A DNA stretch of 37,364 nucleotides from a virus, in the IMG/VR virus record IMGVR_UViG_3300042515_001790, positions 1-37,364 of that record; one strand, given 5' to 3'. The notes under the pieces were generated by a model. It was not told the origin of the DNA and made no database searches. It saw only the letters and a program-made list of their open reading frames with translations. Both the position numbers and the translations under genes were made by a program. Below are positions 829 through 34,673 of this stretch, piece by piece (the first letter of the stretch is position 1; each line of letters begins with the position of its first letter).

Positions 829-3639
829 ATGGTTATATATTATGATAATAATATAGGTAATACATCTAGTAGTACTGGTACGAATAATTTCTTATTAGGT
901 ACTGCATTACCATACTACAATAGTTTAACAGGATTACTTAATAAATATATACCATATTATATTAAACATGATACATTAACAGAATGGGAGTATGGTTTAG
1001 GATATATTGTTAATATAGGAGGGGAAAATGTTTTAGTTAGAGGAGAGGATAATTCATACGAAACTGCCATATATTCATCTTCTAATAATAATAGCAAAGT
1101 TATTTTTTCTGCTGGTACTAAATCTGTAGTAGCCATTATTAGTGCTGAAAGAATTAATCACGGAGGTAATAATTATGTAACAAAAACTTCTAATTTTTAT
1201 GTAGATCCAGTACAAACAGTTTATGGGATACAACCAACAGGAACAAATATAACAGCTTATCTGCCATTAGCATCTGGCAACAAAAACCTAGTAGTTGGTT
1301 TCAGACTACTCAATGGTTCTCTTAATAACCTAATCATATCCCCTTCTGGATCAGACCTGATAGATGGATCAGGATCTGTTACACTAAATCCTAACACACA
1401 GTATACATCGCTAATATCTAATAATTCTGGATGGGTACAGCTAAATCGAAATATTAATATTGATGCTGCCGGATTACCTGATGGTAGTCAAGGAAATATT
1501 CAATTTAAAAATAATAGTACCGATTTTGCAGGAGATAATGATTTACATTGGGACATAAACAATAAACTATTATTAGTTGGAGGAGCAACGTCTGGTAATG
1601 CCAATATTATTTTACCAGCCGATTCGGGACATACTACGATCTTTAATAAACAAGCATTTAATAATGATTTTCAAGTTAAAGGAACAGGTAATAATCAGCT
1701 GTACTTTGATGCATCATCTGGTAAGTTTGGCATAAATACACAAACACCAACAACCATTTTACATATTGTTGGTAGGTGCGCTAATGACACAATGAAGCTA
1801 GAAAGCTCCACAAATTGTGCCACCGGAGTAGCACTAACCCTATATCATAATCCTCTTAGCGGCTCTGAAGTAGGAGATTTTCCAGCCACTATTAATTTTG
1901 CTGGTAGAGATAGTAATGGCCAACAGATTAATTATGGTAGAGTTAGGTCCAGAATCTTAGGAACATTAATTAATCAAACTAGTGGAGAACTTGTTCTAAG
2001 TGTAGATTATTTAGGTGCAGAAAAAAATATTATTACTGTTAGTCCAGTTAGAACTACATTAGGAGTTAATTCAAATACTTCTGAATTACATAATATATCT
2101 ATAGGTAATTTTATTGTTAATAGTGGATCTAATAATATAGTAGTTGGACAATCAGCTAATATTTCAGATATAAATTCTACAAACAATATTATTCTATCTA
2201 ACAGCGGGTCTTTTAAAGGAAATAATTCTTTTATAGCAGGAAGCAACACCCCCTCGTCAGGTACAAATATTTATGTTTTAGGTAGTAATACTAGGGCAAC
2301 CGGGATAAACCTATTCAATATCGGTTCTGATAATACTCTTAATGGTTCCAATATTATTAATTGTGGATATTCTAACAATACCAGCGGAGCATCAGTATTC
2401 GCATTAGGAAAAAATAACACAGTAACAAATGCTATTTCTGGCATAGCTATAGGATTCAACAACACTGTTCAAAGCGGCATTTCTTTTGGGTCAGACATTA
2501 CTGCTATAGGTTACAATATAACATGCGGATCATTAATAATATCATCTGGAGTTAATAATACTGTACTTGGTATCTACACTGATGCAATAGGATTGAACAA
2601 CACAGCGGTTGGATCTGGGCATTATATTCTCGGAACAGGCAATATTGTTTTTGGAGAAAATGTAGCAACAACCGGTACCAATAATATTATTATTGGAAAT
2701 AACTTAGATATTGTAGATAGCAATAGTGTTGTGATAGGTATTGATGATCCTTCTATTGTTATTAATAGTGGTAATATAGCTATAAACTCTGGACTATCTC
2801 CTGTAAACATTAGTCTCTACGGAAGTAGTGCTCAATCTGGTTTATTTTTAAGAAATAATAAAGTAGGTATTAATAATTTACCATCTGATCCATATGTATT
2901 AGATGTATTGGGTTCTGGTAAAATGAATCATCTTTATACAGAAACATTACGAGTTGGATCAAATACAAGTAGTAATTATATCTTAGTATCAGACACATCA
3001 GGTAATGCCACATGGCAGTCTCCATCTATTTTTGAACAAAATTTTACGGATAACTTAACAGTCAATGGACTAGTGTCCTATGACGGAAACACTTTTGTAT
3101 CAACAACTGGTTTGTTCTGGAGTCAAACTAGTGGTATTTTATATACTACTAATAATAATACTATTATTCCAACAGGAAATAATACTTTTGTTATTAACAA
3201 TAATCAACAAGCATTATCTAATTTATTTAATATCAAAGGTTCAATACGTCCAGATTTATTAGTAGTTAATAGTAATGTAGATAGAATAGGTATTAATAAT
3301 AATAATCCTCTTAGAACGATAGATGCTTCTGGTACTTTTAGAGTATATAAAGATTCATTGAATTATATTGAAAAAAATGACAATCAATTCATTGTAGCTT
3401 ATGATAATGGAGTAGCTCAATCTAATAAATTAGTATTCACCTCATCAGGTATTTATGTTGAACAGACAGTTGCTAGTCCACAAATATTGCCAGAGCACAC
3501 GTTTGTTTCTACATATCCTACTACAGTAAATGTTGAATTAGTTAGAGACTTAGTATTTGATACTAATGATAATAAATTAAAGTATAGAACATCCACATTA
3601 GCTGGCTTTGGGGCCTTTAACGGAAATTCAGATTCCTAG
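829..3639 (+). CDS. Tail fibre protein with YadA-head-like beta-roll repeats
   Basis: 936 residues, started by an ATG nine bases after AAAGG. Residues about 15-110 resemble the N-terminal module of many phage fibres (FLLGTALPYYNSLTG, then WEYGLGYIV, VLVRGEDNSYETAIYSSS and VIFSAGTKSVVAII). I know this module from siphophage and podophage tail proteins, where it probably links the fibre to the tail. Residues about 420-660 repeat short units of the GxNNTxxG type (IGFNNTV, IGYNI, IGLNNTAVGSG, GTNNIIIGNN), which recalls the left-handed beta-roll of the YadA adhesin head. FGINTQTPTTILHI near 300, VGINNLPSDPYVLDV near 678 and IGINNNNPLRTIDASG near 820 match the 'GIGTTNPxxxLHV' motif of trimeric fibres. 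I infer a trimeric receptor-binding fibre. No C-terminal chaperone domain was recognised. Confidence 0.7.
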   Translation: MVIYYDNNIGNTSSSTGTNNFLLGTALPYYNSLTGLLNKYIPYYIKHDTLTEWEYGLGYIVNIGGENVLVRGEDNSYETAIYSSSNNNSKVIFSAGTKSVVAIISAERINHGGNNYVTKTSNFYVDPVQTVYGIQPTGTNITAYLPLASGNKNLVVGFRLLNGSLNNLIISPSGSDLIDGSGSVTLNPNTQYTSLISNNSGWVQLNRNINIDAAGLPDGSQGNIQFKNNSTDFAGDNDLHWDINNKLLLVGGATSGNANIILPADSGHTTIFNKQAFNNDFQVKGTGNNQLYFDASSGKFGINTQTPTTILHIVGRCANDTMKLESSTNCATGVALTLYHNPLSGSEVGDFPATINFAGRDSNGQQINYGRVRSRILGTLINQTSGELVLSVDYLGAEKNIITVSPVRTTLGVNSNTSELHNISIGNFIVNSGSNNIVVGQSANISDINSTNNIILSNSGSFKGNNSFIAGSNTPSSGTNIYVLGSNTRATGINLFNIGSDNTLNGSNIINCGYSNNTSGASVFALGKNNTVTNAISGIAIGFNNTVQSGISFGSDITAIGYNITCGSLIISSGVNNTVLGIYTDAIGLNNTAVGSGHYILGTGNIVFGENVATTGTNNIIIGNNLDIVDSNSVVIGIDDPSIVINSGNIAINSGLSPVNISLYGSSAQSGLFLRNNKVGINNLPSDPYVLDVLGSGKMNHLYTETLRVGSNTSSNYILVSDTSGNATWQSPSIFEQNFTDNLTVNGLVSYDGNTFVSTTGLFWSQTSGILYTTNNNTIIPTGNNTFVINNNQQALSNLFNIKGSIRPDLLVVNSNVDRIGINNNNPLRTIDASGTFRVYKDSLNYIEKNDNQFIVAYDNGVAQSNKLVFTSSGIYVEQTVASPQILPEHTFVSTYPTTVNVELVRDLVFDTNDNKLKYRTSTLAGFGAFNGNSDS

Positions 3640-3648
3640 GAGTAAAAC

Positions 3649-5010
3649 ATGTCGAAACACTTACACAGAACAAATAGAACAACAAGCAACACTCCTATTG
3701 GAGGAGAATTAGAAGAAGGAGAAATTGCACTAGGTATTTCCACCTTAGGGACATCGACTAATGGTTTTAATAATGGTAGATTATATATAAAATTAGCTAA
3801 TGGAGATGTTAAAAGATTTATCGGATTAGGTCTTCCTGGCACAACAGATGAAACCTTAAAAACAAAATATGGAGGCACGAATAATAATTTCTCTACAGCC
3901 TCAGTCCCTACTGTCAATAATACTAAAAATTTAGTTTATTTTAATTATGATGCAAATTTAAATCATAGCTTAGCATCAGTGTCAAATGATACTTTATTAT
4001 GGAATGTATCTACCAATAGACTATCCATCAATCGTAGTACCGCAGCAACATGTACTTTAGATGTCGGAGGAGACCTTCGTGTTCAAACTATTCCGGATTG
4101 GACAAGTTCATTCTCTAGTACATTTAATATTTTAGGACAAAATGAATCAGATGAAAAAATTTATGGAATACCATCTAATACTTTTTTAAGCTACCTCTCC
4201 AATAATAGTCTCCCTTCATCAAGGATATCTGGTGTTGTTGGATTAGATAAAGGAGGAACCAATACTGATTTTACAGCATTTGGCGCCCCATCTAACGGAA
4301 GTGTTATGTTCTATAGCACAGCAACATCAGGCTTTATAACCAATCCTAATTTTACATGGAATACTTCTTCTAACATACTAACTATCGCTGGATCAGTTAT
4401 ACATAATGCCGCTACTGATACATCTAACAACGCCTCCCTTGTTGGTTTAGATGCAACGAATAAATTAGTTAGATTAACAGCCAACAATACTAATAATCTT
4501 GGTTTTAGTACTTTAGCTGTAAGTGGACAGAGTAGCGTCGTAGCAGACAGTAATACGGGTACCGTGACCCTCATTCCCGGAGGTGGCATAAACATAACAA
4601 CTAATAACACAGCTGATACCATAACCATATCTAGTGCTTCTCAGACTATAAGAGAGGTTTATTCGGCTAGTTTATTAGGTAACCTTACCATTAATACTTT
4701 TAGTGAGTTTAGATATCTATTCTTAGATCCTAATGGAGCAAATCGTAATGTGTTCTTAAGTACGACAGGAGCAACGCTGTCAAATGGAACAGACTTAGTA
4801 ATACAAAACACAGAGAGTAATTTATCTGATAATTATCTTAATGTATATAGTGGAACAGGTACAGCGTTATTGATAGCAACTTTATACCAAGATTATGGTG
4901 ATGGAATAACAGATAGAACTAAATCTTCATGGTTTGTATTTGATGGAACCAACTGGAGATCTGCTCTAGAACAGCATCATTATGCACCATATAGTCCATC
5001 GGTACCATAA
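3649..5010 (+). CDS. Second tail fibre-like structural protein
   Basis: 453 residues. The ATG lies seven bases after TAGGAG, which itself overlaps the stop of the previous gene. The N terminus (TPIGGELEEGEIALGIST, then GRLYIKLANGDVKRF) is the 'P..GELxxGEIAxN...GRLYIK' motif common near the start of phage tail fibre and neck-whisker-like proteins. Two related units (YGGTNNNFSTASVPT near 80 and KGGTNTDFTAFGAPSNGSV near 200) match the GGTN/GGTG fibre repeat, each followed by a beta-rich stretch. A short LDVGGDLRVQ segment near 140 recalls the fibre motifs of the preceding protein. The C-terminal 110 residues look like a globular beta domain ending in WFVFDGTNWRS. The gene sits ten bases downstream of the first fibre gene and is probably co-translated with it. 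A partner or distal segment of the same fibre is likely; the exact role is not visible. Confidence 0.6.
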   Translation: MSKHLHRTNRTTSNTPIGGELEEGEIALGISTLGTSTNGFNNGRLYIKLANGDVKRFIGLGLPGTTDETLKTKYGGTNNNFSTASVPTVNNTKNLVYFNYDANLNHSLASVSNDTLLWNVSTNRLSINRSTAATCTLDVGGDLRVQTIPDWTSSFSSTFNILGQNESDEKIYGIPSNTFLSYLSNNSLPSSRISGVVGLDKGGTNTDFTAFGAPSNGSVMFYSTATSGFITNPNFTWNTSSNILTIAGSVIHNAATDTSNNASLVGLDATNKLVRLTANNTNNLGFSTLAVSGQSSVVADSNTGTVTLIPGGGINITTNNTADTITISSASQTIREVYSASLLGNLTINTFSEFRYLFLDPNGANRNVFLSTTGATLSNGTDLVIQNTESNLSDNYLNVYSGTGTALLIATLYQDYGDGITDRTKSSWFVFDGTNWRSALEQHHYAPYSPSVP

Positions 5011-5033: not shown

Positions 5034-6812
5034 ATGAGCAGTATTGATTTACATTATGGTAGAAATAAATTTTCTACAATATCTGGTACAGCTTACAGAT
5101 TGCCTCTACCACTGGTAACTGTCGATACAACAACAAATGTAGATAATGATGGAAATATACTTTCATTTGTATCTTCTATTCAGCTAGAAGGAACAATTAT
5201 TGGGAGTGGAATTTCTTCTTTAATGACTGCGTATTCTGGTATACAGAATTTTTTTACTAACAATAGTAATCAGGGTCAAAATTTTAGCATTCTCTGCAAT
5301 AATACTAATATTAGTACATATAGTGGAGTATACTTAAAATCTATTAATGCCCAAAAAAGCAATGATAATTGGACAGTGTTACTACCATATTCTATTACGC
5401 TGGAAAGCGCCTACCCTGCATCAGGAGTGATAGGATTAATACAGTCATTTGAAGATTCATGGTCTATAGAACCTTTAGAAGAAATATCTTATGTTAATTA
5501 TGTTAAAGATGCTGTTCTTAAAGATTTTAAACCATCACAAGCTAATAGAGATTTGAATTCTCCTCCAGCAGACTCTATTCTCTACAATAAAGCAGTATCT
5601 GTTCAAGTAGAGAATATCCTACAACATAGAATCACTCATCGAGTCAGTGCTGTTGGTAAAAGTATAGATAGAAGTGATCTTGTAAATCCTTCTGTTATTA
5701 TTAATAAAAATCCAGCATATATAGAAGCAGCTAGATGGGTAGCAGATAGACTTAATAAGTCATACTCAACAACTAGTATTAGTACCCCAACAGGTATCAC
5801 AATTCTTTCTTCTCCGTCTTCTCCTCCTACTACAGGATTGTATTTATATAATCACGTTCGTACGATTGAATCAAATGTATCTGCTGGATCGTATGGTATT
5901 GTGGATACCTGGTTAGCTTTAACTTCTGGAATTAAATATACAGAAGAATTTACTTGGGAAATTAACACAGATGATAAATTAATTAAAACAGTAACTATGA
6001 ATGGAACTATTAAGGGATTGGAGGCAGTAGGTGGTAACGGCTTTACCATGTTTCCTGATCAGTCTATGACAGGAGTGATTAATCCTAATTTTCCCTCTAA
6101 ATTTTCTAATCAAAATCAAACAAACAACAAGTTTTCTGTAGCAATTAGTGGTTACAATAATCATGTCAAACCGTATCTTTATCAAAGAGCTTCCTTAGCA
6201 TTATCTGCTATTCCAGGAGGAGCAAAAGCATCTTCCAGCAGTAACACAACAGATCAGATATTTTTTGGCCCATCTGCAAATAATCCATTAAATGTTATTC
6301 CTGCTCAATATAGCGAATCTATGAATCCAGTCGCAGGAACAGTAGGATACAATGTTGTTTATTCAAATAGACCAGGGTCATTTATTCCTGGATCTTTATC
6401 TTCCAGTATTACAGTCACAGACTCAGCCCCTTCTGATCAAGTAGCAGAAACTTTTATTTTAGGCAGACCATTGGGTCCTATATTAGAAAAAGTAGGTACT
6501 ACTAAATCCGAAAGAAGGGTTAATGTAGAGATTCTATATCCCGCCCCAACAGGATATGTTCAAGCTCATCCACAATCTCCACAGTGTGTGGTTTATAGCG
6601 GTAATGCTTCTTTCCAGCAACTACAACAATTAGTCAATTCTTTTAGGCCCATAGCAGCCGAAGCTTTTGCTAGTATAGTACCTACGTCATCTTATTCCAT
6701 AGCCAATCAAGGATTAGTATTCAAAACTAGTGATAGTAGAAATTGGAATCCTTTTGAGGGTAGATTTTCATGGGATATTACATGGGTATATAATACTGGA
6801 GAATGTTTATAA
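5034..6812 (+). CDS. Virion structural protein, tail or baseplate (function unknown)
   Basis: 592 residues, started by an ATG seven bases after AGGA. I do not recognise a named family. The protein is rich in S, T, N and beta-prone sequence, without a signal peptide or membrane segment. The stretch SFEDSWSIEPLEEISYVNYV near 140, and AGTVGYNVVYSNRPGS followed by VAETFILGRPLGPILEKVGT near 440-490, resemble beta-sandwich modules I have seen in tail and baseplate proteins of large phages. AYIEAARWVADRL near 225 is a conserved-looking amphipathic helix. The C terminus ends in a tryptophan-rich segment (WNPFEGRFSWDITWVYNTGEC). The position between fibres and the 1795-residue protein supports a structural role at the tail tip. 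It could also be a neck or collar protein. Confidence 0.5.
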   Translation: MSSIDLHYGRNKFSTISGTAYRLPLPLVTVDTTTNVDNDGNILSFVSSIQLEGTIIGSGISSLMTAYSGIQNFFTNNSNQGQNFSILCNNTNISTYSGVYLKSINAQKSNDNWTVLLPYSITLESAYPASGVIGLIQSFEDSWSIEPLEEISYVNYVKDAVLKDFKPSQANRDLNSPPADSILYNKAVSVQVENILQHRITHRVSAVGKSIDRSDLVNPSVIINKNPAYIEAARWVADRLNKSYSTTSISTPTGITILSSPSSPPTTGLYLYNHVRTIESNVSAGSYGIVDTWLALTSGIKYTEEFTWEINTDDKLIKTVTMNGTIKGLEAVGGNGFTMFPDQSMTGVINPNFPSKFSNQNQTNNKFSVAISGYNNHVKPYLYQRASLALSAIPGGAKASSSSNTTDQIFFGPSANNPLNVIPAQYSESMNPVAGTVGYNVVYSNRPGSFIPGSLSSSITVTDSAPSDQVAETFILGRPLGPILEKVGTTKSERRVNVEILYPAPTGYVQAHPQSPQCVVYSGNASFQQLQQLVNSFRPIAAEAFASIVPTSSYSIANQGLVFKTSDSRNWNPFEGRFSWDITWVYNTGECL

Positions 6813-6831: not shown

Positions 6832-9800
6832 ATGACAACACCGTGCTATACGACAATTACAAAATCAGGAACAAACGGAGGACCAGCAACCAACTATAAA
6901 ATATGTTGCTCTAAGGTTTATGCTCAAACTCTGTTTTTAGGATGTAGTATCAAATCTTTCAATGCTTCTTTGGCATGGGGCTCAGAATCCAGTAGATTAA
7001 CTGTTGAATTAGTATATGACTCTTGTAAATATCCTTCTTTAACTGATATTAACGGCACGAGAGTTCCAAGACCAACACAAGATAATGCCTATGTAACAGC
7101 TAGACAAAATAATAATTTTAGCAAGGACGAGAATGGGAATAGCTTAATCCCAGCAAAGGTATATTATGTAGCATCAAACGGAGCAATTGTTTCTAGGTAT
7201 TGGTCTGATCCTGACCCTGGTTTTTATGCGGACATGCCTGATCCCAATTTGAGTATAGATATTGTAGGAACACCCGTTTATTTTATTTATGACGATTTTT
7301 CATTTAATGGTATTGTTAAATCTTGGGAAAAAAGCAATTCTTCTTCGGGTACTGATAGCTATACTGTAATTATAGAATCTCCATCGTATTTACTATCTCA
7401 AACTAATATGATTTTATCAGATTATGTTGGTTCTATACATTCTAAAGTTGCCTCCGATTCTACTTGGTATTCCGAAAATCAATATCTTGGATTTCCTAGT
7501 TTAGAATACAGTAATGATTATACAGGTTTGATAGGGAATCAAAATATACCTAATCTTATCAATATTTATGGATATTTAGAAGATAATTCTAATTTCAATG
7601 GTACAGGTGGTAGTAGCGGAGCTTTATTTGATCCAATAACTCGTACGCCAGAATATTCTTATGGCAGATCTATGAAGAATGATCGAGGTATACCTGTTTT
7701 GAAAATTTTAACAGCATTATATGAACTTACAAGTACTGGAGAAGCATATGTAAATAATATTCCTAATCAAGCAGGATATAGAAAATTATTCAGATATGCT
7801 CCTTATGCTAGAATTGTTGGTAAGCCGCCTTTATTAAAAAATACTACTACTATTTATAACTGGCAGAATACAGATAGGTTTCGTATGGGTCTTATAGAAC
7901 CTAAACAATTGTCTGTAGACGGAGTTAATGTTTATTTAAGTCCTTTTATGCTAGATATAAGTAATTTAGTAGATAATGGTTTTATTCCAGCAGAATATCG
8001 TATGAGCGAAACTAATTTAGATATTTTAAGTTTAGTTAATAATATAGCAGATAATACTGGTCAAGAAGTTTTTATTAGTTTAGAAATATTCTGTGTAGGT
8101 AATTTTACATACCCTGTTATCAAAGTTAATACTTATTCTAATCTAAGAACACCTGGAGATACGGCTGTACAGTCTTTTATCGATGGTATAACAGACGCTG
8201 GAGCAACCATAACTGCAACAAATAAGGGAGAAGAATTTAATAATACTAAACCCGTTAGATCAGTATATATTGGAGGTAAACAACAAAGATTATATCAGGT
8301 AAAAAATGTAAAATATGCTGTTTCGCAAAGTACTCTCAAATACAATCCATATACTAAAACTTTTGCTCAAGTACAACACTATGGACCAAGTGCTACACAA
8401 CAATATAGATTTCCAGATCTTAATAGTTTAAGAAATTTAGATATGGGATATGTTGTAAATACTGTTTTAGGAGTTACTGGCAGAGTTGATGCAAGGGCTG
8501 CGGGAGCTTTTAATACGACGGATACATGGGCTACTAATATATTAAGAGGTAATTATCAAAAACCTCTTAACGTTGTTGGTACTCAAATATCTCCCGCAGA
8601 ATTGAGTTATCCTTCTAGTTTATCTGATGCTATTTGTCCTTTTTTTGGTACGGATCCTTTTACTAAATTAGTGAGACCTATTTATCACAATTATAATGAA
8701 ATAAATTTACAAACAGGAAATCCTCAAATTAATCCATTTGGCAATAAATCTGGTTTAGGATTTGTTGTAGAGTTTAGCGCTGCAGAAATAGAAAATATAG
8801 TAGGATATAATTTAACTGATCGAACTCCTATTGGAATTTCTGAGTTAGAGTTCAGAGCAGCTATGAGTGGACCAGACGCTTATATTGCATTTATAACTGC
8901 CGTCGCGGCTGAATCAGTATCTCTCGGAATATCCCCTTCTGCTGTTAAACTAGATATATATCGTAAAGTATTAAGATTTTTAGTTAATTTTGGACCTAGT
9001 ATATCTATGGGATTAAAAAATCATTATAATGCTTATAGCAATTCACAATCAGGAGGACAAAGCGTACCTACAGGACCAGCTTCTAGTATTTATACTGATC
9101 AAAGAGCATACGGAGTATTCGTTAAATTACAACAGTTTTTGAAAAATATTGCTGATGAATATTATGGTAAACAATTTATGATTAGTGTTCCTTCTCCTCA
9201 AATATATACAGATATTAACACAGCATATCAAGTTACAGGAACTCTGCCAAACGGAAATGATATTCCTTTAACTGGAGGTAGTCAAAAAATTTATTCGTCT
9301 TTTGAGCTAGCAACAGACGGAGCATGGGAAGAACCAGGCAATGTGATAGATGATACTCTAACAATAGGAACATCAGATGTTGATGAATTTATTAATGATA
9401 ATGGACTAATACAAACCATATTAGGCTATAGTAATTTACCTCTCTATAATTATTATAGAGAATTTGAATATTCTTTATATAATAATACCATTAATTTTAA
9501 TACAAATTTTAATTTTTATAACTTTACAAAATTTGATGCATATCGAAGCGCTGGTGTTTTTCATAACTGGTCAACATCTAATCCAACATTTTATTGGGAA
9601 CCATCTTTGATGTTTTCAGGAGATAAATATAAGGTAGTGCCATATAGACATTCTTTTTCAGACAGCTATAACTCCAGAACTATACCAGCGGACCTAGCTT
9701 CTAAAGTATATGTTAAAGCAGATGTTGAAGAAAATTTAGTGTTTGCTAAAAATGGTAATTCTGTTATTCCCAAAATTATTGTAAAAACAGATAAAATAGA

Positions 9801-12219
9801 TATTAATCCGATATCACCAGACGCACTAAGTGTTAGTGCTGCTATAGCAGAATTTATGTTGCCAGAATATTCTGCTACTAATAATGCTGTAATTTCTATT
9901 AGAGCTAAAAAAATTCTAGCTATTAGTAATAGATATGTTAACAATGGCGCCGGATTTACTGCTGAAAACTATTTACAGGATAGTGGAAACAAACAATATA
10001 ACAACCTATCTATTGCTCCAAAAGCAGCTATGCCAGCATTTGCCGCTATTCCCGTCAAAGATAATAGAGCTGTATACGGACCATGGATTAGCTCTCCAGA
10101 TATGTTTATAGACGATATTTTTTCGTATTTAGGAGACGACTCAGCTCATAAATCAAGAAAACTAGAAACACTAATCGGAGGAGTTAACGTAAATGTAGAC
10201 CCAAGTCTTGTTCCATGGAACTATGGAAGTATGGTAGTTTTAGATATGGTGGCTATTCAACTAGCTACACAAGATAATAATTATCAACTTAAGGGAGAAA
10301 CTGGTCAGTTATCATATTACGGCACTCCAATGTTTAATTTAGGAAATGAGTTGAAAGCTGCTGCATATGCATTCGGAGGACCAGTAATCAATAATATACA
10401 AACACAAATCAGCGAAAACGGCCCATTAACTACGTATACATTTAGAACATATACAAAGAAATTTAGTTTATTTAATAAAGAAAATGCAGATAGATTAAAA
10501 GAGGCAGGCGAACAAAATATTAGATTTGAAAAACAACTAAGGCAACAGTATGCGGCTATTAGAGAACAACTAAGTTCCATAGCTGGTCGCCCAACACTTT
10601 CAAATTTTGATCTAGGAGCATCTGTACCAAAACTGAGATCTTACAGTCCATTGAATGTTTTAGTTGGTTATTCTTCTCCATTTTTTAGTCGTAAAGCTAC
10701 TAAACAGCCCAAATTTCTAGCTAATCGATTTGATAATACTAACATATGGACGGGAGACAGTATTCGTCAATTAACCACTGTTACTTTACAAAATATTAGA
10801 GAAGTACCATCAGAATTTGAAAATTCTTATAGTTCCAAAGCATTTATGAGTATGGATGGTTTATTGCAGCCTATATCTTTTTATCCAACGTTGTCCAACT
10901 CTACTACTCCTCTAAAAAAATATTATACAAGTGGTTGTCCGTTTTGTAACGGAACCAAACAATATTCTTTTACTTTATCTGATGGAAATACCAGATCTCT
11001 ATGGTGTGATTTTTGTAGTGGTGAAGTAGCTGGTTCTGAAGCAGGACCATCAGATGCTAGTAATGGAAGATTACCTCCCTTTATTTTATCGAACGAAGCT
11101 GATTCGTCCATTATCAGAGATCCAAATGCTGTGAGCGCTCTACTAGATAATTTTAAACGAAAACGAATTAATTATGTTAATTTAAATCCTCTCATTATGC
11201 CAGTTGGAGAATTACGTAATCAATATGCTCAGCTTAATGACTTTACAGCTCATCATATCGACATTGTTGGTAGAAGTCAAGTACCTCCACAATCTTTATC
11301 ATTTTATCAGAATTTGGATATAGATCAAAATGGTAGAGAATACTCTGATCAAAATAATAGTTTTGCTGATGCAGATATTAATTCTAAATCTTTTGATAAT
11401 GTTAATAATCGTACTAATACTAGTATTACTCAGATGAATTATAGATTTTTAGGATTACGAGGTCCATTGATAATGGCTGGCTGGGGGTTTGACACAGAGG
11501 GATATCCTGTTCCTAATGCTTCTGGTGAGCCAAAAGGATTTTTTAGTAATGGCCAGCCTTGGAGAATCTCATCTTTAACACAGCAACAAACAGGAACAGA
11601 AGGGGCAATACTCGGCAAAAATCAAGAATGGTCGAATGATGAAGGAAGATGGAGTGAGCCTACGAGAGAAGATAAATTTTATCAGGGTTGGGGTTTAAGG
11701 CCGGATTCGTGGCCAGTCGGACCAGTAGACCTTAGATGGGATCATGCGAAAAAAGTGTGGACTACTCCACAGCCATATAAGCTCGTTGATATACAATTAG
11801 AAGATGATCTTGTACCACCATTTCCTGCTAGAGGCTTCTTAAATGCCGTAGACAGAAAAACACCACTACCCAATGGTCTCAGGCGCATGGTATTTGTCAA
11901 AGATTCGTCTGAAACATTTGGAGCACCAAGAGGCGCAAAAATTTTATGTTATTATGATGAAGGTTCTGGCTTTTATGAACCAATATCTCGTCAAAATATT
12001 ATTGCTTTAGGATATATACAAAGCAATGGTTCTGCTAGGATTTTTAATGCATATGCTAAAGGTTACGATCCAGTTACCGGGTTGCCAGAAAGTCCAGAAG
12101 AAATAACCGTTCAATATGGGAATCCTTTGAATTTCCCATTAACTACTCCAAACCAGACCGGTGTATTTATGTATATAAGGAATTCATGGACTCTTATTAG
12201 TACATATAGCTGCACTTAA
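6832..12219 (+). CDS. Giant tail-tip/baseplate protein, possible baseplate hub
   Basis: 1795 residues; ATG preceded by AGAGGA. Near residue 30-60 the sequence FLGCSIKSFNASLAWG leads into a beta-rich stretch, and near 145-200 GTPVYFIYDDFSFNGIVKSW is followed by SYTVIIESPSYLLSQTNMIL. This pattern resembles the N-terminal part of baseplate hub proteins (gp27/gpD-like), where a ring-forming domain is followed by a segment about sub-domain resolution (here near 395, IPAEYRMSETNLDILSL). A CxxC-x19-CxxC cluster (CPFC then CDFC) lies at about 1368-1393 and should bind zinc. A coiled or helical segment rich in K, E, R and Q lies near 1215-1255. The C-terminal region contains GPVDLRWDHAKKVWT near 1640 and LPNGLRRMVFVKDS near 1685, which I have seen in marine phage structural proteins. 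The hub assignment is an inference from position and motif resemblance. Confidence 0.45.
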   Translation: MTTPCYTTITKSGTNGGPATNYKICCSKVYAQTLFLGCSIKSFNASLAWGSESSRLTVELVYDSCKYPSLTDINGTRVPRPTQDNAYVTARQNNNFSKDENGNSLIPAKVYYVASNGAIVSRYWSDPDPGFYADMPDPNLSIDIVGTPVYFIYDDFSFNGIVKSWEKSNSSSGTDSYTVIIESPSYLLSQTNMILSDYVGSIHSKVASDSTWYSENQYLGFPSLEYSNDYTGLIGNQNIPNLINIYGYLEDNSNFNGTGGSSGALFDPITRTPEYSYGRSMKNDRGIPVLKILTALYELTSTGEAYVNNIPNQAGYRKLFRYAPYARIVGKPPLLKNTTTIYNWQNTDRFRMGLIEPKQLSVDGVNVYLSPFMLDISNLVDNGFIPAEYRMSETNLDILSLVNNIADNTGQEVFISLEIFCVGNFTYPVIKVNTYSNLRTPGDTAVQSFIDGITDAGATITATNKGEEFNNTKPVRSVYIGGKQQRLYQVKNVKYAVSQSTLKYNPYTKTFAQVQHYGPSATQQYRFPDLNSLRNLDMGYVVNTVLGVTGRVDARAAGAFNTTDTWATNILRGNYQKPLNVVGTQISPAELSYPSSLSDAICPFFGTDPFTKLVRPIYHNYNEINLQTGNPQINPFGNKSGLGFVVEFSAAEIENIVGYNLTDRTPIGISELEFRAAMSGPDAYIAFITAVAAESVSLGISPSAVKLDIYRKVLRFLVNFGPSISMGLKNHYNAYSNSQSGGQSVPTGPASSIYTDQRAYGVFVKLQQFLKNIADEYYGKQFMISVPSPQIYTDINTAYQVTGTLPNGNDIPLTGGSQKIYSSFELATDGAWEEPGNVIDDTLTIGTSDVDEFINDNGLIQTILGYSNLPLYNYYREFEYSLYNNTINFNTNFNFYNFTKFDAYRSAGVFHNWSTSNPTFYWEPSLMFSGDKYKVVPYRHSFSDSYNSRTIPADLASKVYVKADVEENLVFAKNGNSVIPKIIVKTDKIDINPISPDALSVSAAIAEFMLPEYSATNNAVISIRAKKILAISNRYVNNGAGFTAENYLQDSGNKQYNNLSIAPKAAMPAFAAIPVKDNRAVYGPWISSPDMFIDDIFSYLGDDSAHKSRKLETLIGGVNVNVDPSLVPWNYGSMVVLDMVAIQLATQDNNYQLKGETGQLSYYGTPMFNLGNELKAAAYAFGGPVINNIQTQISENGPLTTYTFRTYTKKFSLFNKENADRLKEAGEQNIRFEKQLRQQYAAIREQLSSIAGRPTLSNFDLGASVPKLRSYSPLNVLVGYSSPFFSRKATKQPKFLANRFDNTNIWTGDSIRQLTTVTLQNIREVPSEFENSYSSKAFMSMDGLLQPISFYPTLSNSTTPLKKYYTSGCPFCNGTKQYSFTLSDGNTRSLWCDFCSGEVAGSEAGPSDASNGRLPPFILSNEADSSIIRDPNAVSALLDNFKRKRINYVNLNPLIMPVGELRNQYAQLNDFTAHHIDIVGRSQVPPQSLSFYQNLDIDQNGREYSDQNNSFADADINSKSFDNVNNRTNTSITQMNYRFLGLRGPLIMAGWGFDTEGYPVPNASGEPKGFFSNGQPWRISSLTQQQTGTEGAILGKNQEWSNDEGRWSEPTREDKFYQGWGLRPDSWPVGPVDLRWDHAKKVWTTPQPYKLVDIQLEDDLVPPFPARGFLNAVDRKTPLPNGLRRMVFVKDSSETFGAPRGAKILCYYDEGSGFYEPISRQNIIALGYIQSNGSARIFNAYAKGYDPVTGLPESPEEITVQYGNPLNFPLTTPNQTGVFMYIRNSWTLISTYSCT

Positions 12220-15200: not shown

Positions 15201-18200
15201 CAAATAGCTGGTGAAAAAATTATTACTATACCGAATAATATAGCATTACCAGTTTATGTAAATATAAAAGGATTTGTTGATGATGATTTAGTGATCAATG
15301 GAGATGTTATAGAACCAGGAAAATATCCGTATTGGATTTTTCCATGCAACGGAGCGCATAATGTTGACTACACATTCTTGTGCAATGAAAGATCTTTCAC
15401 TGTTGCAGCAGCTGATAATATTGGTGGTTGGGTAGGATATAATCTAGATATTAAATTTCAAAGTGCTACTAACTATTTTTATAGTGCATATAGTATGTAT
15501 GATGAAGAATATTTAGAAGGATACAACTTTATATTTAATGAAACAAATTTATCTGTTTATCAAAAAGAAAATATAGCATATGCTAAGTATTTAGGTATTC
15601 CAACACAAGGAGGAGCATATTTAGTTACAGATAAATGGCGTAAAATTAGATATACTCCAACAGAGAGTTTAATTCTTGATTTAGTGCCATTTGAATACAT
15701 TAATTTAGATTATTTTGTTAATGATCACGGAAGATTTATTAATGATTTAATTTATGAACAAGTTGGAGTCGATTCTATAAGAATTACTAGTTTAGACGGA
15801 ACTAATAGAGCTACTTCGTATTTTGATATTGTTAATCCAACATATCAAACATGGAAAGTTGTTTTATATAGTCGGCTGAATTTAAACAAAAATTTTGAGG
15901 CTACTATAAACTATATTCAAGATAATATTATATATCTCAGACAAAATTTACCGTCCAAAAATATAGATCAAGGTATCGACTATTCTTCCGGATTAATTAG
16001 AAAGATTAACGAAGAGCTGGATGATTATGTTCCGTCTATTCTTGTTCTAAGACCATATAAAACAGTGAGAGATGATTACATTTCTGTAGGTAAATGGGGG
16101 AATATGTCATATGGTAAAGCAGCTCTAAATGCTACACAAGCATTACCTAAATATAATAATTCCACTTTAAGAACTTCAGTATATCCAAATACATATTTTA
16201 CATGGGGTGTTCCATTAGCTTTCTATAATGGATATGATCCAGATAATAAGTCTTATTATTTTCCATTAACTAGAATATGGGCAGAAAAATATAGCAATCA
16301 ACGAATACTACATGTATTGGGCCAAAATAATCAATATCCAGTAGGAAATCCTAATCCTCAAGGAGATATGATTATATCATCTGGTTCTATTTCTGGTAGG
16401 CAAGATTATATTTATGTTGGAACATATACAGGACCTATAAGAATTGAAATTAATATCGATAGAGCTAATAGTATACAAACACAAAAATATGATGTTGTAT
16501 TGTACTATAATGGTAGCGAGGTATCAAGACAAAGAGTAAATAACAATAATCAATTTACTTTCTATAGTAATAAATCCTCATACTTAGGACTATACGCTAT
16601 TGTTAAAATAGAACAAAATCAGAGCGGTTGCACCAATAGTAATACAGCATATATTACAGGTACTGTGTCTTTAAGGTCGTATTCCGTAATAGCTAATACT
16701 AATAATAATGATCTTAAACAAACAACTAGATTGTGCTATCATAAACATGAAACAATAAATAAAGACTCAATGTTTCCTAAGTCTTTAGTTGCTGGTATAG
16801 GTGGAGCTCTAACATTATGTAATACTAAAATAGCTCCCCTCTCTTATAATAAAGATACTACAAACTTTAATTTATTAAAAACTAAAGATTTTTCTCCATT
16901 ATTAGATCTTCATATTTTTTCTAGTCTAGAGAAGCACCAACCTGTTAAATCTAATGGCGGTATTGTTTTCTTCGAAGATTTTTTACAACCAAAACCTTTG
17001 AATTTTTCTATGCAGATACCGTATAATGAAAATTTCTTTTGGATAGACATACCTCATAACACAGAATGGCAACTATTAACAAAAAAAGGAATTATATTTA
17101 AATCTAATCAAGTTTATAAGGTACTAAAAAAATTAAAATATACTTGCCAAGGAGATGCTTCTTTATGTTCATCAAGATATAAAAAAAATATCTGTCAAGA
17201 TGAATATAGTTTAAGTATAGGAGATTTATGGGATAAACTAGGACTAACAGCACAAGATAGTCAGTATTTCGATGTAGTTTCTGTTTCTTTTCCGGGAGAC
17301 TGTGGAAATATTGATTATTGCTGTGAGCCAGGAGACTGGAACTGTGCAAACTCTCAGGCCCAACAAAGAGATAGATGCTATAGTTTTTGGAATGATTACA
17401 AAGTTGATGTTAACTGTCAAAGCGCTACAGATCCTAATACAAATCCACAATGTTTGGATTCTATCAGCCAACCAACAAATGCCAAAGGTACTATTCGAGC
17501 AACAACAGAGTATTTTGTATTAAAACTTAAAGAAAATATATTACCATATTTACATAATATTACCAATCCTAGATTCCACTTTTTTAGAAACGCATCTACG
17601 GTACCAATTCCATGTACATCTACTACTCTTAATAGTGTTGGTACATCATTTTTAGTAAATTATTTTTGTAATATAATTACTGATAAATGTGAATATATTT
17701 TTCCTAAAGATTATAGTTTAGGTTCTGAATATACTCCTGGTAATTTTATAGATCTTAGTCCATCTATTCTCGATCCTGGTAATGCGATTATTAATACTCC
17801 TCCTCTATCCGTTATTTTATCGAATGAAGAAAAATACAGAAGTATTGTTTCCCATCCTAATAATATTAGTCCTCCTTTGAAAGAATATGATCCAGAGGCG
17901 GACACAAAATATTGTATTACAAAAACTTTTACTATTAAAGGTACAGATAATTGTATTGCTCCAGGACTTTTATTCAGGTTAGAGGTGGATAATTTTAGAT
18001 GTCAATTTTCTTTAGATAAAGACATAGAAGGAAATGTTAGTATCAAATCTTGTTTCGATGATTTGACACTAAAAACTAAAGACAATAATGCAACTTTTAC
18101 AGTATCTCGTACTATAGCAGAAGGGACTTTTTCGTGCAATAGCAATGGAGATCCAGTGACAGGAGGATCTCCTCCTGATAATTTTTTTAATCAACAAGAT

Positions 18201-19811
18201 TTTAGCTGCTCTGATGCTAATAACGAAATGTCCCAGCGTTTTGGACCAGACTGGGAAGAAAATTATACGTTGGTAGGATGTAAAGATATAAGCAAACCAG
18301 AAGATTATTATTTAGCTTGTAGATATTGTGGACCTAAGCCATGTGGACATACTTTAAGTTATCAAGAAGCTGCTGAACAAGAGTGTCATTGTCCTAAATA
18401 TGCTGATTTAGCTGATTCTCCTACAGGGGGTAAAACATGTACATACTCTGTAGACTTAAGCATATGTGAATTAGGACAATACGATGGCTATTGCACAAAA
18501 TATACTGTTAAAACAGTACCATTATGTGGAGGATATTTAAATGACGGATTATGTACAGTAGCCCCGTCGTGTTTTGCAAAAATTGATGGGCCAACAGAAC
18601 AAGAACTAAGAACATATGAAGATGCGTGTGCCAATGTTGATCCTCAATATATTAAAGAATTCGAAGTAAGTAGATCTATTTTAGATGGACCGATTAGCAT
18701 ATTAGATGACGACCCAGCTGATACAGTAGGGATATATAATAAAAACATAGAGGAACAAGCTAGAATTAATAATGAAAATTGTCAAGTTTATAGACAACAA
18801 TCAGAATGCAACAATAACTGCAATCAATATCAAGACCAGACTGCTAGATCTAATTGTTATTGTCAGTGTTCATGTCAATCATCATTAGCTCTAGCCCAAA
18901 TTGCTAATAGTCGAGAGTGGTCAATAGGTTGTAGAGCTTCGTGTAATACCTCCGATGGCATTACAGACGGGTCGAATTATGGATATAATTGGAATGGTTA
19001 TTATAATTATTGTGGATATTATTATGGTGGATTTTGTTATTATTATGGATGGTGGTATAATTATGGAACATGTACAGCTTCTAATGGAGAAGTATCTAGA
19101 CCTCCTTGTAATTTATCACATTGTGCTGCTAGTAGTTTCCAGAGTCAGTATCAGTGTAATGGTGAAAATAAAAGTGGTTCGGACTACTCTCCATGCTCTA
19201 ATCTAGAAGATCGTTTAACAATATACCAAGGACACGTATCTAGTTGTCAATGTACATTAATATCACCACAAGAAGGACAGTATTTTATCCCATATTATAG
19301 GCAAGACCAGGAGACTTCTTGTTATAGAACTAAAACAAATATAGAAACTTTAACACCAACACAACACTCTCATTATACTCGTGAGCGCAAAGCCTATACA
19401 AAAACTAAAACGGTTTTTGTGCCTCAAGATAAAGCTAAAGAATTGACAGAATCTGTAAAAATTCGTAAAAAAACTTATGAAATCAGTTATAAAAATAAAC
19501 AAGATCAGGATAATCCTCCCGGACAATGTCCTTGTTATGGACAAGAATCTATTAATATCACGATAAAAGTTGAGGTATATCATAATTTAATTATAGCTTT
19601 TTTTGGTTCTGGTGGAGGTAGCGGATCTTCAGGCACTGGAGCAGGCGTGATATCCGGTAGTTCATCTCGTTTAAATAAAATTTGTCTACCAAGAAATACT
19701 AGTAATAAATTTAAGTGTCCTGTTGTAAAATATACTCCACTTAATTCAAAATTATTAATGTGCGATACAACCAGTGTGAAAAAAAGTAATTGTGTTTTGG
19801 GGAGTATATAA
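12231..19811 (+). CDS. Giant multidomain cysteine-rich virion protein, probable adhesin
   Basis: 2526 residues; ATG preceded by AAAAGGA. No single family covers it. Visible parts in order: an N-terminal region (1-400) without recognised domain; four tandem glycine-rich units at about 409-568 of the form 'I.I.npGsgY..pP.v.i.GGGG.GA'; a beta domain at about 586-678 that is repeated at about 983-1078 (compare GNVSDDLLVNGTII with GFVDDDLVINGDVI, and IAVKNNFGGIISYNLKI with VAAADNIGGWVGYNLDI); a long middle region; a cysteine-rich part from about 1640; and a tyrosine/glycine-rich tract at about 2249-2282. The last bases of its stop codon overlap the next start (TAATG). The position after the baseplate-like gene and its modular make-up suggest an exposed tail protein that contacts the cell surface. 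Function is not shown by any catalytic motif I can see. Confidence 0.5.
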   Translation: MAACDCDIKNNLLVYELLNNIDNTVFNYDLADYIKPYDVSYSGVWMPYFHTTQPKSIDGSIWKEYTSNTCQSSTPNGLGVANFLYIPQTQGLKNWSVTGPLFMNLDWVVNFQPCANYNETILFWYRYWDINRENDNRLVPGVDLYISDGDFAIINGAPNVTDNLKNSARLIKQSLTSAKITCDVDWLSKLLSSGPQIDWVTEILTGAGIDECEKFEPGWTVESIQYPRDEYYRILPFLKLMSDKPYNDIGTNNYIQSKSDLIYKLVSKCGLQLVIPPNSTTIFTSNFTSDTGPNISISSNQQLFVPSNNPGAGYSVAYSVGDLLFKAAPSGFVNPIMTKYNSTVLADTHRLNTFTLNDKVLGYNLSPVVSGTFDPNISNIQFHGFGGVKINTDIKLGQACDNEFNLNLGGVISITMINGGSDYTSPPTVSIQPSASDSGAGGATGIAVIGDGALQEINIINPGKNYFTPPKVYIVGGGGTGATAVAQVSEDGLITNINLQNRGTGYYSQPTIYLIGCGTEGVAEAELTSSGQVTRVIITNPGSGFTKSPSISFSGGGGSGAQAKGTVAGTQHEFQEDTGELPKARYCSGSTYGQQTVNIPDGLGSGPYYVRITGNVSDDLLVNGTIIDCGRYASGTYKCNNDHSIDYLFKTSSSFFTIAVKNNFGGIISYNLKITFSGSAKYNNTKQFDDKPFFIDNYRPANRVYDTFETGPAAISIGFTTASNSQLRIKENFNLNYLRSASKPSCPAFIETNSQECDCQSLTSIHPNIGIQQASNEFNNVGIPNTSTYYLPSGMYYGGLLSNLVGENGIIIPGHPSPGTPLPKSHAPIFPSNESCKYSRAGCGNGTVYFDIPYPATLKLTTQASKGKFSLLWNGKAVTSTKTGSDELILTKSTASPASVQVTFGGATADDPEIQWGVSLDAIQNTYTQQVVSAGFSMVGSKGFFHPNFGWTYDSRYSNKTAVLPQGTTVLATQSISYGSSVNWGGYCNPQIAGEKIITIPNNIALPVYVNIKGFVDDDLVINGDVIEPGKYPYWIFPCNGAHNVDYTFLCNERSFTVAAADNIGGWVGYNLDIKFQSATNYFYSAYSMYDEEYLEGYNFIFNETNLSVYQKENIAYAKYLGIPTQGGAYLVTDKWRKIRYTPTESLILDLVPFEYINLDYFVNDHGRFINDLIYEQVGVDSIRITSLDGTNRATSYFDIVNPTYQTWKVVLYSRLNLNKNFEATINYIQDNIIYLRQNLPSKNIDQGIDYSSGLIRKINEELDDYVPSILVLRPYKTVRDDYISVGKWGNMSYGKAALNATQALPKYNNSTLRTSVYPNTYFTWGVPLAFYNGYDPDNKSYYFPLTRIWAEKYSNQRILHVLGQNNQYPVGNPNPQGDMIISSGSISGRQDYIYVGTYTGPIRIEINIDRANSIQTQKYDVVLYYNGSEVSRQRVNNNNQFTFYSNKSSYLGLYAIVKIEQNQSGCTNSNTAYITGTVSLRSYSVIANTNNNDLKQTTRLCYHKHETINKDSMFPKSLVAGIGGALTLCNTKIAPLSYNKDTTNFNLLKTKDFSPLLDLHIFSSLEKHQPVKSNGGIVFFEDFLQPKPLNFSMQIPYNENFFWIDIPHNTEWQLLTKKGIIFKSNQVYKVLKKLKYTCQGDASLCSSRYKKNICQDEYSLSIGDLWDKLGLTAQDSQYFDVVSVSFPGDCGNIDYCCEPGDWNCANSQAQQRDRCYSFWNDYKVDVNCQSATDPNTNPQCLDSISQPTNAKGTIRATTEYFVLKLKENILPYLHNITNPRFHFFRNASTVPIPCTSTTLNSVGTSFLVNYFCNIITDKCEYIFPKDYSLGSEYTPGNFIDLSPSILDPGNAIINTPPLSVILSNEEKYRSIVSHPNNISPPLKEYDPEADTKYCITKTFTIKGTDNCIAPGLLFRLEVDNFRCQFSLDKDIEGNVSIKSCFDDLTLKTKDNNATFTVSRTIAEGTFSCNSNGDPVTGGSPPDNFFNQQDFSCSDANNEMSQRFGPDWEENYTLVGCKDISKPEDYYLACRYCGPKPCGHTLSYQEAAEQECHCPKYADLADSPTGGKTCTYSVDLSICELGQYDGYCTKYTVKTVPLCGGYLNDGLCTVAPSCFAKIDGPTEQELRTYEDACANVDPQYIKEFEVSRSILDGPISILDDDPADTVGIYNKNIEEQARINNENCQVYRQQSECNNNCNQYQDQTARSNCYCQCSCQSSLALAQIANSREWSIGCRASCNTSDGITDGSNYGYNWNGYYNYCGYYYGGFCYYYGWWYNYGTCTASNGEVSRPPCNLSHCAASSFQSQYQCNGENKSGSDYSPCSNLEDRLTIYQGHVSSCQCTLISPQEGQYFIPYYRQDQETSCYRTKTNIETLTPTQHSHYTRERKAYTKTKTVFVPQDKAKELTESVKIRKKTYEISYKNKQDQDNPPGQCPCYGQESINITIKVEVYHNLIIAFFGSGGGSGSSGTGAGVISGSSSRLNKICLPRNTSNKFKCPVVKYTPLNSKLLMCDTTSVKKSNCVLGSI

Positions 19812-21697
19812 TGACATATCAATATATAGATACTAATGGAGCCATACAGGATTGCGACACATCTGGGCAATCTTCCAGAAAATGTTATCCAGATACTTGT
19901 TCTAATACAAAAAGCACATTTAATGCTTGTAGTGGAAATACTTTGAACGCATGGTTTAGTGGAGGGTCATGGGGATATTATGGTAAAATAGGTGACGATT
20001 TAATCTTTTTATATAGTGAAGTAGAAGCCCCAGACGAATATCTATGTAATTATCCAAGAGTTTGTGGATCTAATTATTATTATTCTTGGTCATATAATAA
20101 TTTTTATAACTACTGGTGGAATTATGGATATAATGATTATTATCAAAACTATTCTAATGCTTGTACTAGCAATACATGGGGTATGGGTTTTTGGTGGGGA
20201 TGGTCGGGAGAACAAAGGCCAAAATGCGATGATGAAAGAGGAGACTGTACTTTTCCGAGATTAGTAAACTGCAAGACCCGGAGATGTGTGAATGGAACAT
20301 ATTCATCTTATGATAATTGTCAAGCTATCAACGGAGAAGACAGGAAAAGATGTTGTGCATTACCGACAGGTTGGAATTGTGCAGAAAATGAGAATCACGA
20401 CGGGTCGGCTGGATGCGACTACTCATATGCTATTGTAAAAAAAACATATACAGTTGAGTATGAATTAGTTAAAGATCCGTACGTTTGTGTTGAAGAATAT
20501 CCAGAGTACCCCGAAACATCTTGCGAAAGTTTTTATAGTTATTATAGCTGGTATTATTATTATAATAATGGTAATTATTTCTATAATAATTTTCCAGTAT
20601 CATCCTATCCTGACAAGTGTTATACATGTGTCACTAATTGCGACCCTCCTCAGAGATGTGTAGGACAAAGCGGTGATGGTTCTTGTGTCGGATCATGCTG
20701 TCCTGGAAAAGAACCCAAAGAACATTATACAAAAATAGACACCCAAATCTTTCGTAAATCATGGAGATTTGAAAAAGAAGATTGTGCTTGTACATGTCAA
20801 CCGTGTTTAAAATGTTCTGAATATGATGATTGTACATTTGCTAATTATACTTCATTAGGAAATAACGGATTAAACTGGGGAACATTTTCTAATATTGGAA
20901 GCGATTGTTGTAATCAAAATAATTCTAATGATTATTATTATGGATATTATTATGGTTACTATTATTATGCTCCTCCACTATGTCCTAACGATGACTTCAC
21001 CCCACCGTCTGTAAAATGGTATTGTTATAATGGTACCTGTCAATCAGGCAGTTTTGTTCCTGTGGGAGCAAAAGAATTTTCTTCTAAATATGCCTGTTTG
21101 AATGGAGGATGTGAGCACGGAGATGGAGATGAAAATAGATGTTATGAACCACCAAATAGTTATACTACAGGATTATGTTGTGATAAAGATTTTATGAACA
21201 ATAATAGAGACAGAGCAAATCAGACCAATAGCTGTTGGACAGCTGGTCCTTCATACACAGAAAATATTAAAACTAATATAGGAACATCAGAATGTAGAAC
21301 AGATATATCATATCAAGCTGAAAAATGCACTTTTAAACCCAAATATTGCACTATGAAAAGAGTAGAAGAAGTTCGTACAACAGATACATACGAATATGAG
21401 ATAGAAATGCCTGAAACAGTGACCCCAGGGTGGGAGGCTTGTACTAGATCATATTCAGGAGGTTATTATTATGGTGGAGTTAATGCACCAAACTATACTA
21501 ATTTATGTGATCCAGAATCTTTACAAACCTGTATAAATAACTATAATAATAGCACTATAGCTCCTGATTTTGACACAGGTAAAACCATAGTAAAATACTC
21601 TTTAAAATATAATCCAGAAGCAATTGTTGGATCCACGACCGTTAAATTAAATGTTTACTATTGTAAGATAACAACGAAACCCTGTACTGAATCATAA
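19811..21697 (+). CDS. Cysteine- and tyrosine-rich virion-associated protein (function unknown)
   Basis: 628 residues with 50 cysteines, which is extreme for a cytoplasmically made phage protein. I start it at the ATG at 19811, which overlaps the previous stop as TAATG and follows GGGGAG at seven bases; an upstream TTG in the same frame is not needed. Tyrosine-rich tracts lie at about residues 88-117, 240-263, 371-388 (DYYYGYYYGYYYYAPP) and 549-556. The segment WYCYNGTCQ...YACLNGGC near 400-428 matches a small two-disulphide-like motif ('C.nG.C......C...C') that I know from marine phage tail proteins. CACTCQPCLKC near 317-327 is another dense cluster. No signal peptide or membrane segment is visible. 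Metal binding or disulphide formation after lysis are both possible. The shared style with the end of the preceding protein suggests they act together, perhaps as adhesive tail-tip parts. Confidence 0.5.
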   Translation: MTYQYIDTNGAIQDCDTSGQSSRKCYPDTCSNTKSTFNACSGNTLNAWFSGGSWGYYGKIGDDLIFLYSEVEAPDEYLCNYPRVCGSNYYYSWSYNNFYNYWWNYGYNDYYQNYSNACTSNTWGMGFWWGWSGEQRPKCDDERGDCTFPRLVNCKTRRCVNGTYSSYDNCQAINGEDRKRCCALPTGWNCAENENHDGSAGCDYSYAIVKKTYTVEYELVKDPYVCVEEYPEYPETSCESFYSYYSWYYYYNNGNYFYNNFPVSSYPDKCYTCVTNCDPPQRCVGQSGDGSCVGSCCPGKEPKEHYTKIDTQIFRKSWRFEKEDCACTCQPCLKCSEYDDCTFANYTSLGNNGLNWGTFSNIGSDCCNQNNSNDYYYGYYYGYYYYAPPLCPNDDFTPPSVKWYCYNGTCQSGSFVPVGAKEFSSKYACLNGGCEHGDGDENRCYEPPNSYTTGLCCDKDFMNNNRDRANQTNSCWTAGPSYTENIKTNIGTSECRTDISYQAEKCTFKPKYCTMKRVEEVRTTDTYEYEIEMPETVTPGWEACTRSYSGGYYYGGVNAPNYTNLCDPESLQTCINNYNNSTIAPDFDTGKTIVKYSLKYNPEAIVGSTTVKLNVYYCKITTKPCTES

Positions 21698-21709: not shown

Positions 21710-22261
21710 ATGACAGATGTAAATATTTTTTGTTCTTTTCAACAATCAAATTTAAATCCTAATTTATATGTATGTCAACATTGTGGTAATGTAGTTGATC
21801 AAAAAAATTACCATCCAGCTTCATTGCCTATGTGTCCAGTTTTAACCGATGTGTCCGCTATGAATCCGGACGTAAATCAGGTCAAATTAGCAGAAGTTGC
21901 TGTTTCAAACGACGGAGGAAAAACATTCGTATCCGTAACCAAAGATACTCAACCAACAGCTATTTTAGAGGATTGGTGGTTTTATAAACCATTTGGAGGT
22001 AATGCCTTAGAAACAAAACCTCCTAGACCACAACAATACGAAAATGATAACCAAAACAGAAAACAATGTACTCAGGCGCAAATAGACGAAAGATTAAAAA
22101 TTTGTCATGGTTGTGAGTTTTATAAGAATAATACCTGTTTAAAGTGTGGATGTGCATTATCTAGAGAAAAAACCTATATGAATAAACTACTATGGGCTGA
22201 TCAAAAATGCCCAGTAGAAAAATGGGGTCCTATTCCAGAATCGACAGATCTTGAGATTTAA
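21710..22261 (+). CDS. Small zinc-ribbon phage protein
   Basis: 183 residues; ATG seven bases after AAAAGGA. Two cysteine clusters are visible. The first (YVCQHCGNVVD near residue 23, with MCPVL about 20 residues on) looks like a zinc ribbon. The second, at about 125-175, has the order C..C......C..CGC.....K......CPVEKW (CHGCEFYKNNTCLKCGCALS). I know this C-terminal pattern from small uncharacterised proteins in phage structural gene clusters, ending in a 'CPxxKW' signature. Between them lies a segment with tryptophans (DWWFYKPFGG). It is the last gene of the rightward cluster, and its end overlaps the end of the leftward gene by 32 bases. Its biochemical role is unknown; a role in virion assembly or as a minor virion part is the contextual guess. 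Confidence 0.55.
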   Translation: MTDVNIFCSFQQSNLNPNLYVCQHCGNVVDQKNYHPASLPMCPVLTDVSAMNPDVNQVKLAEVAVSNDGGKTFVSVTKDTQPTAILEDWWFYKPFGGNALETKPPRPQQYENDNQNRKQCTQAQIDERLKICHGCEFYKNNTCLKCGCALSREKTYMNKLLWADQKCPVEKWGPIPESTDLEI

Positions 22262-32212: not shown

Positions 32213-32241
32213 ATAGTATTGGTGGTGTACCAGCATGTCAA
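32213..32241 (-). promoter_or_regulatory. Predicted sigma70-type promoter of ssb
   Basis: On the minus strand a perfect TTGACA (32241-32236) is followed after 17 bases by TACTAT (32218-32213). The expected start is near 32206, leaving a leader of about 40 bases with AAAGGA before the ssb ATG. The TGA stop of the upstream polymerase gene lies inside the TTGACA, so the promoter uses the last bases of that gene. This is the best consensus match I saw in the window. Confidence 0.65.
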
Positions 32242-34649: not shown

Positions 34650-34673
34650 ATTTAGAACCCTTTCTTTTTGGAA

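Follow-up and report, generated by a model that had tools for sequence, protein, structure and literature searches.

The protein of 628 amino acids (aa) encoded in the penultimate gene of a phage tail operon carries a conserved framework of cysteines, and occupies a slot whose content varies between related phages. The operon ends with a gene for a small ribbon protein with CxxC pairs. A Cys-rich gene followed by a relative of this ribbon gene was also found in unrelated phages, and the recurrence of this two-gene cassette is the strongest new result of the analysis. We read the 628-aa protein as a distal component of the tail tip that forms one structure with the C-terminus of the preceding giant protein, is caged by disulphides and displays aromatic loops for host contact; taken as a whole, this reading has in our estimate an even chance of being right.

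Organization of the tail operon

The window, i.e. the whole analysed stretch of 37,364 nucleotides, belongs to an uncultured phage and recurs at 100% on two other contigs, G001 and G002 (73 and 115 kb, G002 being the longer). On G002, a gene for a tape measure protein of 5797 aa is followed by genes for proteins of 936, 453, 592, 1795, 2526, 628 and 183 aa; beyond these, the coding strand switches. The tape measure protein was assigned by PF10145 (E 5e-22) and by PHROG tape-measure families, and its presence in this run confirms the location of the 628-aa gene in a tail gene cluster, as originally proposed. In tailed phages, genes for the tip and for host contact usually lie near the end of the tail operon. 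Features of the window are as follows:

2..811, plus strand: C-terminus of the tape measure protein, which has 5797 aa on G002
829..3639, plus strand: 936-aa tail-module protein, 4 Cys, assigned by its location downstream of the tape measure gene
3649..5010, plus strand: 453-aa tail-module protein, 1 Cys, assigned by position
5034..6812, plus strand: 592-aa tail-module protein, 3 Cys, assigned by position
6832..12219, plus strand: 1795-aa tail-module protein, baseplate- or tip-like by position, with relatives at 27-34% identity
12231..19811, plus strand: 2526-aa giant tail protein, Gly-rich repeat at residues ~409-571
17028..19808, plus strand: last 927 aa of the giant, Cys-rich (57 Cys)
19799..19804, plus strand: ribosome-binding site GGGGAG of the 628-aa gene, 6 bases before its ATG
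19811..21697, plus strand: gene of the 628-aa Cys/Tyr-rich protein, 50 Cys, 42 of them invariant among homologues
20066..20143, plus strand: aromatic tract GSNYYYSWSYNNFYNYWWNYGYNDYY, inserted only in this phage and absent from all four homologues
20528..20593, plus strand: aromatic tract SFYSYYSWYYYYNNGNYFYNNF of the 628-aa protein
20933..20968, plus strand: aromatic tract YYYGYYYGYYYY, residues 375-386 of the 628-aa protein
21710..22261, plus strand: 183-aa ribbon protein of the operon's final gene, with CxxC pairs among its 11 Cys; its C-terminus matches phrog_13558

The start codon at 19811 shares bases with the giant gene's stop codon (TAATG), and the reading frame ends with its own stop at 21697. 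At about 0.15 nm per residue, the 5797-aa tape measure would correspond to a tail near 870 nm. The tape measure gene of G002 (L014:2402 to L015) also gives a weak ADP-ribosyltransferase match (PF03496, E 4e-5, residues 1218-1422). Elsewhere in the window (32238-36548, minus strand), DNA polymerase III alpha is encoded in two genes, one for the PHP and NTPase domains and the other for the finger, HHH and OB domains, separated by an exonuclease gene; a like arrangement of the second half and the exonuclease is present in L025 and L026.

Composition of the 628-aa protein and of the giant protein

The 628-aa protein contains exactly 50 Cys (7.96%), 72 Tyr (11.5%) and 3 His. For at least 50 Cys in 628 aa the chance is 4e-16, assuming 2% Cys, and the local density of 10 Tyr within 12 residues was reached by none of 5000 shuffles of the protein. 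The counts of the original prediction (50 cysteines, about 8%, with Tyr-rich tracts) are therefore borne out. Spacings between cysteines are mostly 4-40 residues, with one compact cluster, CACTCQPCLKC, at residues 325-335. Neither a signal peptide nor a membrane segment was detected in the sequence, and no profile matches were found in Pfam, PHROGs, NCBIfam or PDB-sequence families. The AlphaFold model, built on an alignment of five sequences, has a mean pLDDT of 36 and is unusable for pairing cysteines.

A similar Cys-rich style, noticed earlier at the 3' end of the giant gene, is evident in the giant protein, with 57 Cys in the C-terminal 927 aa (6.1%) versus 23 in the first 1599 aa (1.4%). 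The 1795-aa protein has 13 Cys and the tape measure protein a single one. The Gly-rich repeat of the giant is common with cyanophage virion proteins (phrog_701, phrog_708 and others), but only the repeat matches, and the Cys-rich parts have no match.

Relatives and variability of the slot

A tblastn search for homologues of the 628-aa protein among 50,697 isolate phage records gave none. Four homologues were found, all in contigs of uncultured phages, and they align at 33-39% identity. Searches with nearby genes led to related contigs; the genes used were the ribbon gene, the 1795-aa gene and one of 112 aa with about 70% conservation, for which 211 stretches were confirmed. Contigs L093-L097 of the group are binned into metagenome-assembled genomes named Chitinophagia, Alphaproteobacteria and Woesearchaeota.

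Three classes of organization were distinguished. In class A (the window, L031 and L032, the last with a shorter homologue of 544 aa), a separate Cys-rich protein follows a giant with a Cys-rich C-terminus; L033 and L035 also belong here, with the giant lying off the contig. A 480-aa gene in the same slot of L034 was not counted as a homologue, as a profile built without L034 misses it. Class B has a single, fused giant (about 2610-2770 aa) whose Cys-rich C-terminus differs in sequence and in L129 and L131 forms a separate open reading frame (ORF), split at about the same point. Giants of class C have about 1% Cys and no Cys-rich region, and in some of them a Thr/Pro mucin-like protein then occupies the slot. 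Such mucin-like proteins lie between the giant gene and the ribbon gene in L101, L121, L123, L132, L136, L148 and L158, with repeats of the type PTPTPTNTRTP (L101:10670-12832, L121:10810-12897, L132:10788-12473 and others, minus strand), and some relatives have no protein in the slot at all.

Profile comparison detected no homology of the 628-aa protein with the C-terminus of the giant or with the Cys-rich tail of class B. The three appear alike in style and place rather than by demonstrated descent. Since the Cys-rich region of class B is either fused to the giant or split from it, the giant and the 628-aa protein probably form one structure. This idea, put forward in the original prediction, is favoured by adjacency, likeness and the fusion or fission in class B, and is weakened by the lack of detectable homology with the class B tail, which makes the reasoning one of positional analogy. 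Modelling of a split class B relative with 20 sequences reached a pLDDT of 57, with a confident beta-alpha-beta-beta core at about residues 121-137 and 208-302; a fold search with this partial model gave no convincing match (best Z 4.4).

The exchange of proteins in the slot between related phages suggests parts used in host contact. A non-virion protein of the late operon, e.g. a superinfection or surface-modifying factor merely placed after the tail genes, would fit the observation that some relatives do without such a gene, which is dispensable in the group. We nevertheless consider this improbable, given that many relatives carry a comparable region as part of the giant tail protein itself, that the sequence has no signal peptide or membrane segment, and that unrelated phages have such a gene in the corresponding position downstream of the tape measure gene. 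As a component of the tail, the 628-aa protein resembles known tail-tip and receptor-binding proteins in its position after tape measure and baseplate-like genes and in the variability of its slot between relatives. It differs from them in having no sequence match to any and in its 8% Cys, while tail proteins encoded before the giant have 0 to 0.7%.

Conservation of cysteines and of aromatic tracts

In the class A alignment (the window and four homologues), 42 of 50 Cys (84%) are invariant, compared with 31% of Trp and 17% of Tyr. On our reading of the alignment, a further three cysteines of the window match when columns are shifted by one or two. Five occur in the window alone, and two cysteines common to all other homologues are missing from it together. 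Cysteine is the most conserved residue in class B too (0.78-0.82, at a mean identity of 0.35). Because 84% of Cys and only 17% of Tyr are invariant, it is, judging from the alignment, the cysteine framework that is held by selection, and not the Tyr tracts.

The aromatic tracts of relatives are rich in W, G, Y and N, located in partly similar places but composed of other letters (WWGWGYNW, FWGYWWGW), and look like loops between fixed cysteines. The three long aromatic tracts of the 628-aa protein could be taken to indicate a fibre, adhesive or similar to amyloid, that works through dityrosine or through stacked Tyr tracts, and the original prediction did regard them as a functional element of this kind. 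This is disfavoured because the tracts are conserved neither in sequence nor in number, few Tyr are invariant, all four homologues lack the tract near residues 86-140, and relatives have W/G/N-rich loops instead; we give such a fibre very little credence.

Disulphides or zinc

Pairs of the CxxC type, a mark of zinc knuckles, occur at 0.76 times the chance level in the 628-aa protein and its family, while in the ribbon genes they reach 4.5-5.4 times chance (4.5-fold in the neighbouring ribbon gene). The lack of CxxC enrichment in the 628-aa protein favours disulphides over zinc. Close sisters in class B often differ by two cysteines together (alignment columns 1110/1116, 1118/1123, 832/1190 and 841/885), and one clade has EEF-SFLES where others have EEC-WxEC; a tree-based test for paired gain or loss of cysteines in class B revealed no excess. 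Odd numbers of cysteines (47 in full-length homologues, and a mixture of even and odd in class B) indicate that some of them may be free, intermolecular or metal-bound. We read the cysteines as mostly engaged in disulphides, with some in one of these other states. Because there is no signal peptide, disulphides would need to form after lysis.

Alternatively, the tail tip could be rich in zinc, with cysteines binding several ions already in the cytoplasm and the ribbon protein helping to load them, so that the structure would be stable before lysis and need no oxidation. Synthesis in the cytoplasm without a signal peptide, the linked ribbon partner gene, the compact cluster at residues 325-335, the mild enrichment of CxxC in class B (1.3-1.6 times chance) and the odd cysteine counts all agree with this. 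Against it stand the depletion of CxxC in the protein and its family together with only 3 His, the change of cysteines in twos in several close class B pairs, and the spacings of mostly 4-40 residues; zinc binding as the main role of the cysteines is in our view rather unlikely.

The G002 contig also encodes a thioredoxin-fold protein with a signal peptide or membrane anchor and the WCxxC motif WCGAC (L019:13791-14192, minus strand), with relatives in L085, L087-L090 and L092. Seven other contigs of the group have a thioredoxin match, so that 8 of 24 contigs do in total. The exported thioredoxin was dropped as evidence of oxidation, being present also in G015, a relative with a Cys-poor tip. 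In the same region, a gene for a secreted trypsin-like protease (PF00089, E 5e-18; L019:12279-13427, minus strand) adjoins an actin-like Volactin match (PF25216, E 1e-63; L019:11275-12276, minus strand).

Linkage of Cys-rich genes and the ribbon gene

The ribbon protein keeps 11 Cys throughout the relatives of the window group, and its C-terminal motif is CxxCEFYKNNxCxxCGC...CPxxKWG. Over its C-terminal third it matches phrog_13558, a CxxC-pair ribbon family with no assigned function (E 2e-7). It differs from this 69-position profile in its length of 183 aa, in a second, N-terminal CxxC module, and in adjoining a Cys-rich gene.

A relative of the ribbon gene is present in unrelated phages with about 62% G+C, and a Cys-rich gene lies directly upstream of it there, often with a 4-base overlap. 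Considering the non-redundant loci of these phages with a complete upstream gene, the gene before the ribbon gene is Cys-rich in 23 of 25, versus 11 of 198 other ORFs in the same loci (p = 6e-21, a value that is overstated as the loci share descent). The Cys-rich genes before the ribbon gene encode 169-1020 aa with 4.5-15.5% Cys. In three of these phages the order is tape measure gene, further tail genes (two of them), Cys-rich gene and ribbon gene. The Cys-rich gene of another phage weakly matches a cyanophage baseplate hub protein (E 0.02).

Examples of Cys-rich genes in the phages of about 62% G+C are L190:4132-4896, L061:7560-8162 and L048:7354-9813 (plus strand). One protein of this set has a long poly-Ser tract, one reaches 15.5% Cys and one has CCxGxWxxG repeats, while several share a similar N-terminus of the type MALINQGGKLLLRDGKLGTGQACCC.

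The ribbon gene is kept in relatives with Cys-poor giants, and in cyanophages with weakly similar ribbons no Cys-rich tail gene is annotated beside the ribbon. Its role is therefore wider than pairing with Cys-rich proteins.

Proposed model and its meaning

We propose that the 628-aa protein is made reduced in the cytoplasm and would be assembled at the tail tip together with the Cys-rich C-terminus of the giant. Once the virion meets oxidising surroundings, the conserved cysteines would close into disulphides and create a stiff framework, resistant to proteases, from which rapidly evolving aromatic loops, including the Tyr tracts, could be shown to the host. Presence in the virion and a part in host contact or adhesion are, like the disulphides, proposals, while the place in the tail operon, the conserved cysteine framework, the variable slot, the recurrent linkage with the ribbon gene and the fusion or fission of a comparable Cys-rich tail in sister phages are observed. 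As the genetically linked partner, the ribbon protein would most likely be a chaperone that assists assembly, protects thiols or carries metal, and not a component of the cage.

Extracellular disulphide-rich adhesive or knottin-like proteins also combine an invariant cysteine framework with freely varying loops, and the 628-aa protein bears a general likeness to them. It differs in having no sequence match to such proteins and no signal peptide, and in coming from a phage. No relevant paper on Cys-rich tail tips was found in the literature collection searched. Tail-tip proteins are known as a kind; what is possibly new is the module of a Cys-rich protein and a ribbon.

Extended to the cassette, we tentatively suggest, at somewhat less than even probability, that a two-gene module of a Cys-rich tail-tip protein and a ribbon chaperone builds disulphide-armoured host-contact parts from cytoplasmic proteins in at least two unrelated groups of uncultured phages. 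The other tail proteins of this phage avoid cysteine. With a tip in which cysteines are the most conserved residues, one has to ask how so large a framework of disulphides (or metal) would stay reduced in the cell and close in the virion, a question made testable by the linked ribbon gene. In a large group of uncultured phages, the module further points to genes that probably serve host contact and previously had no assigned function.
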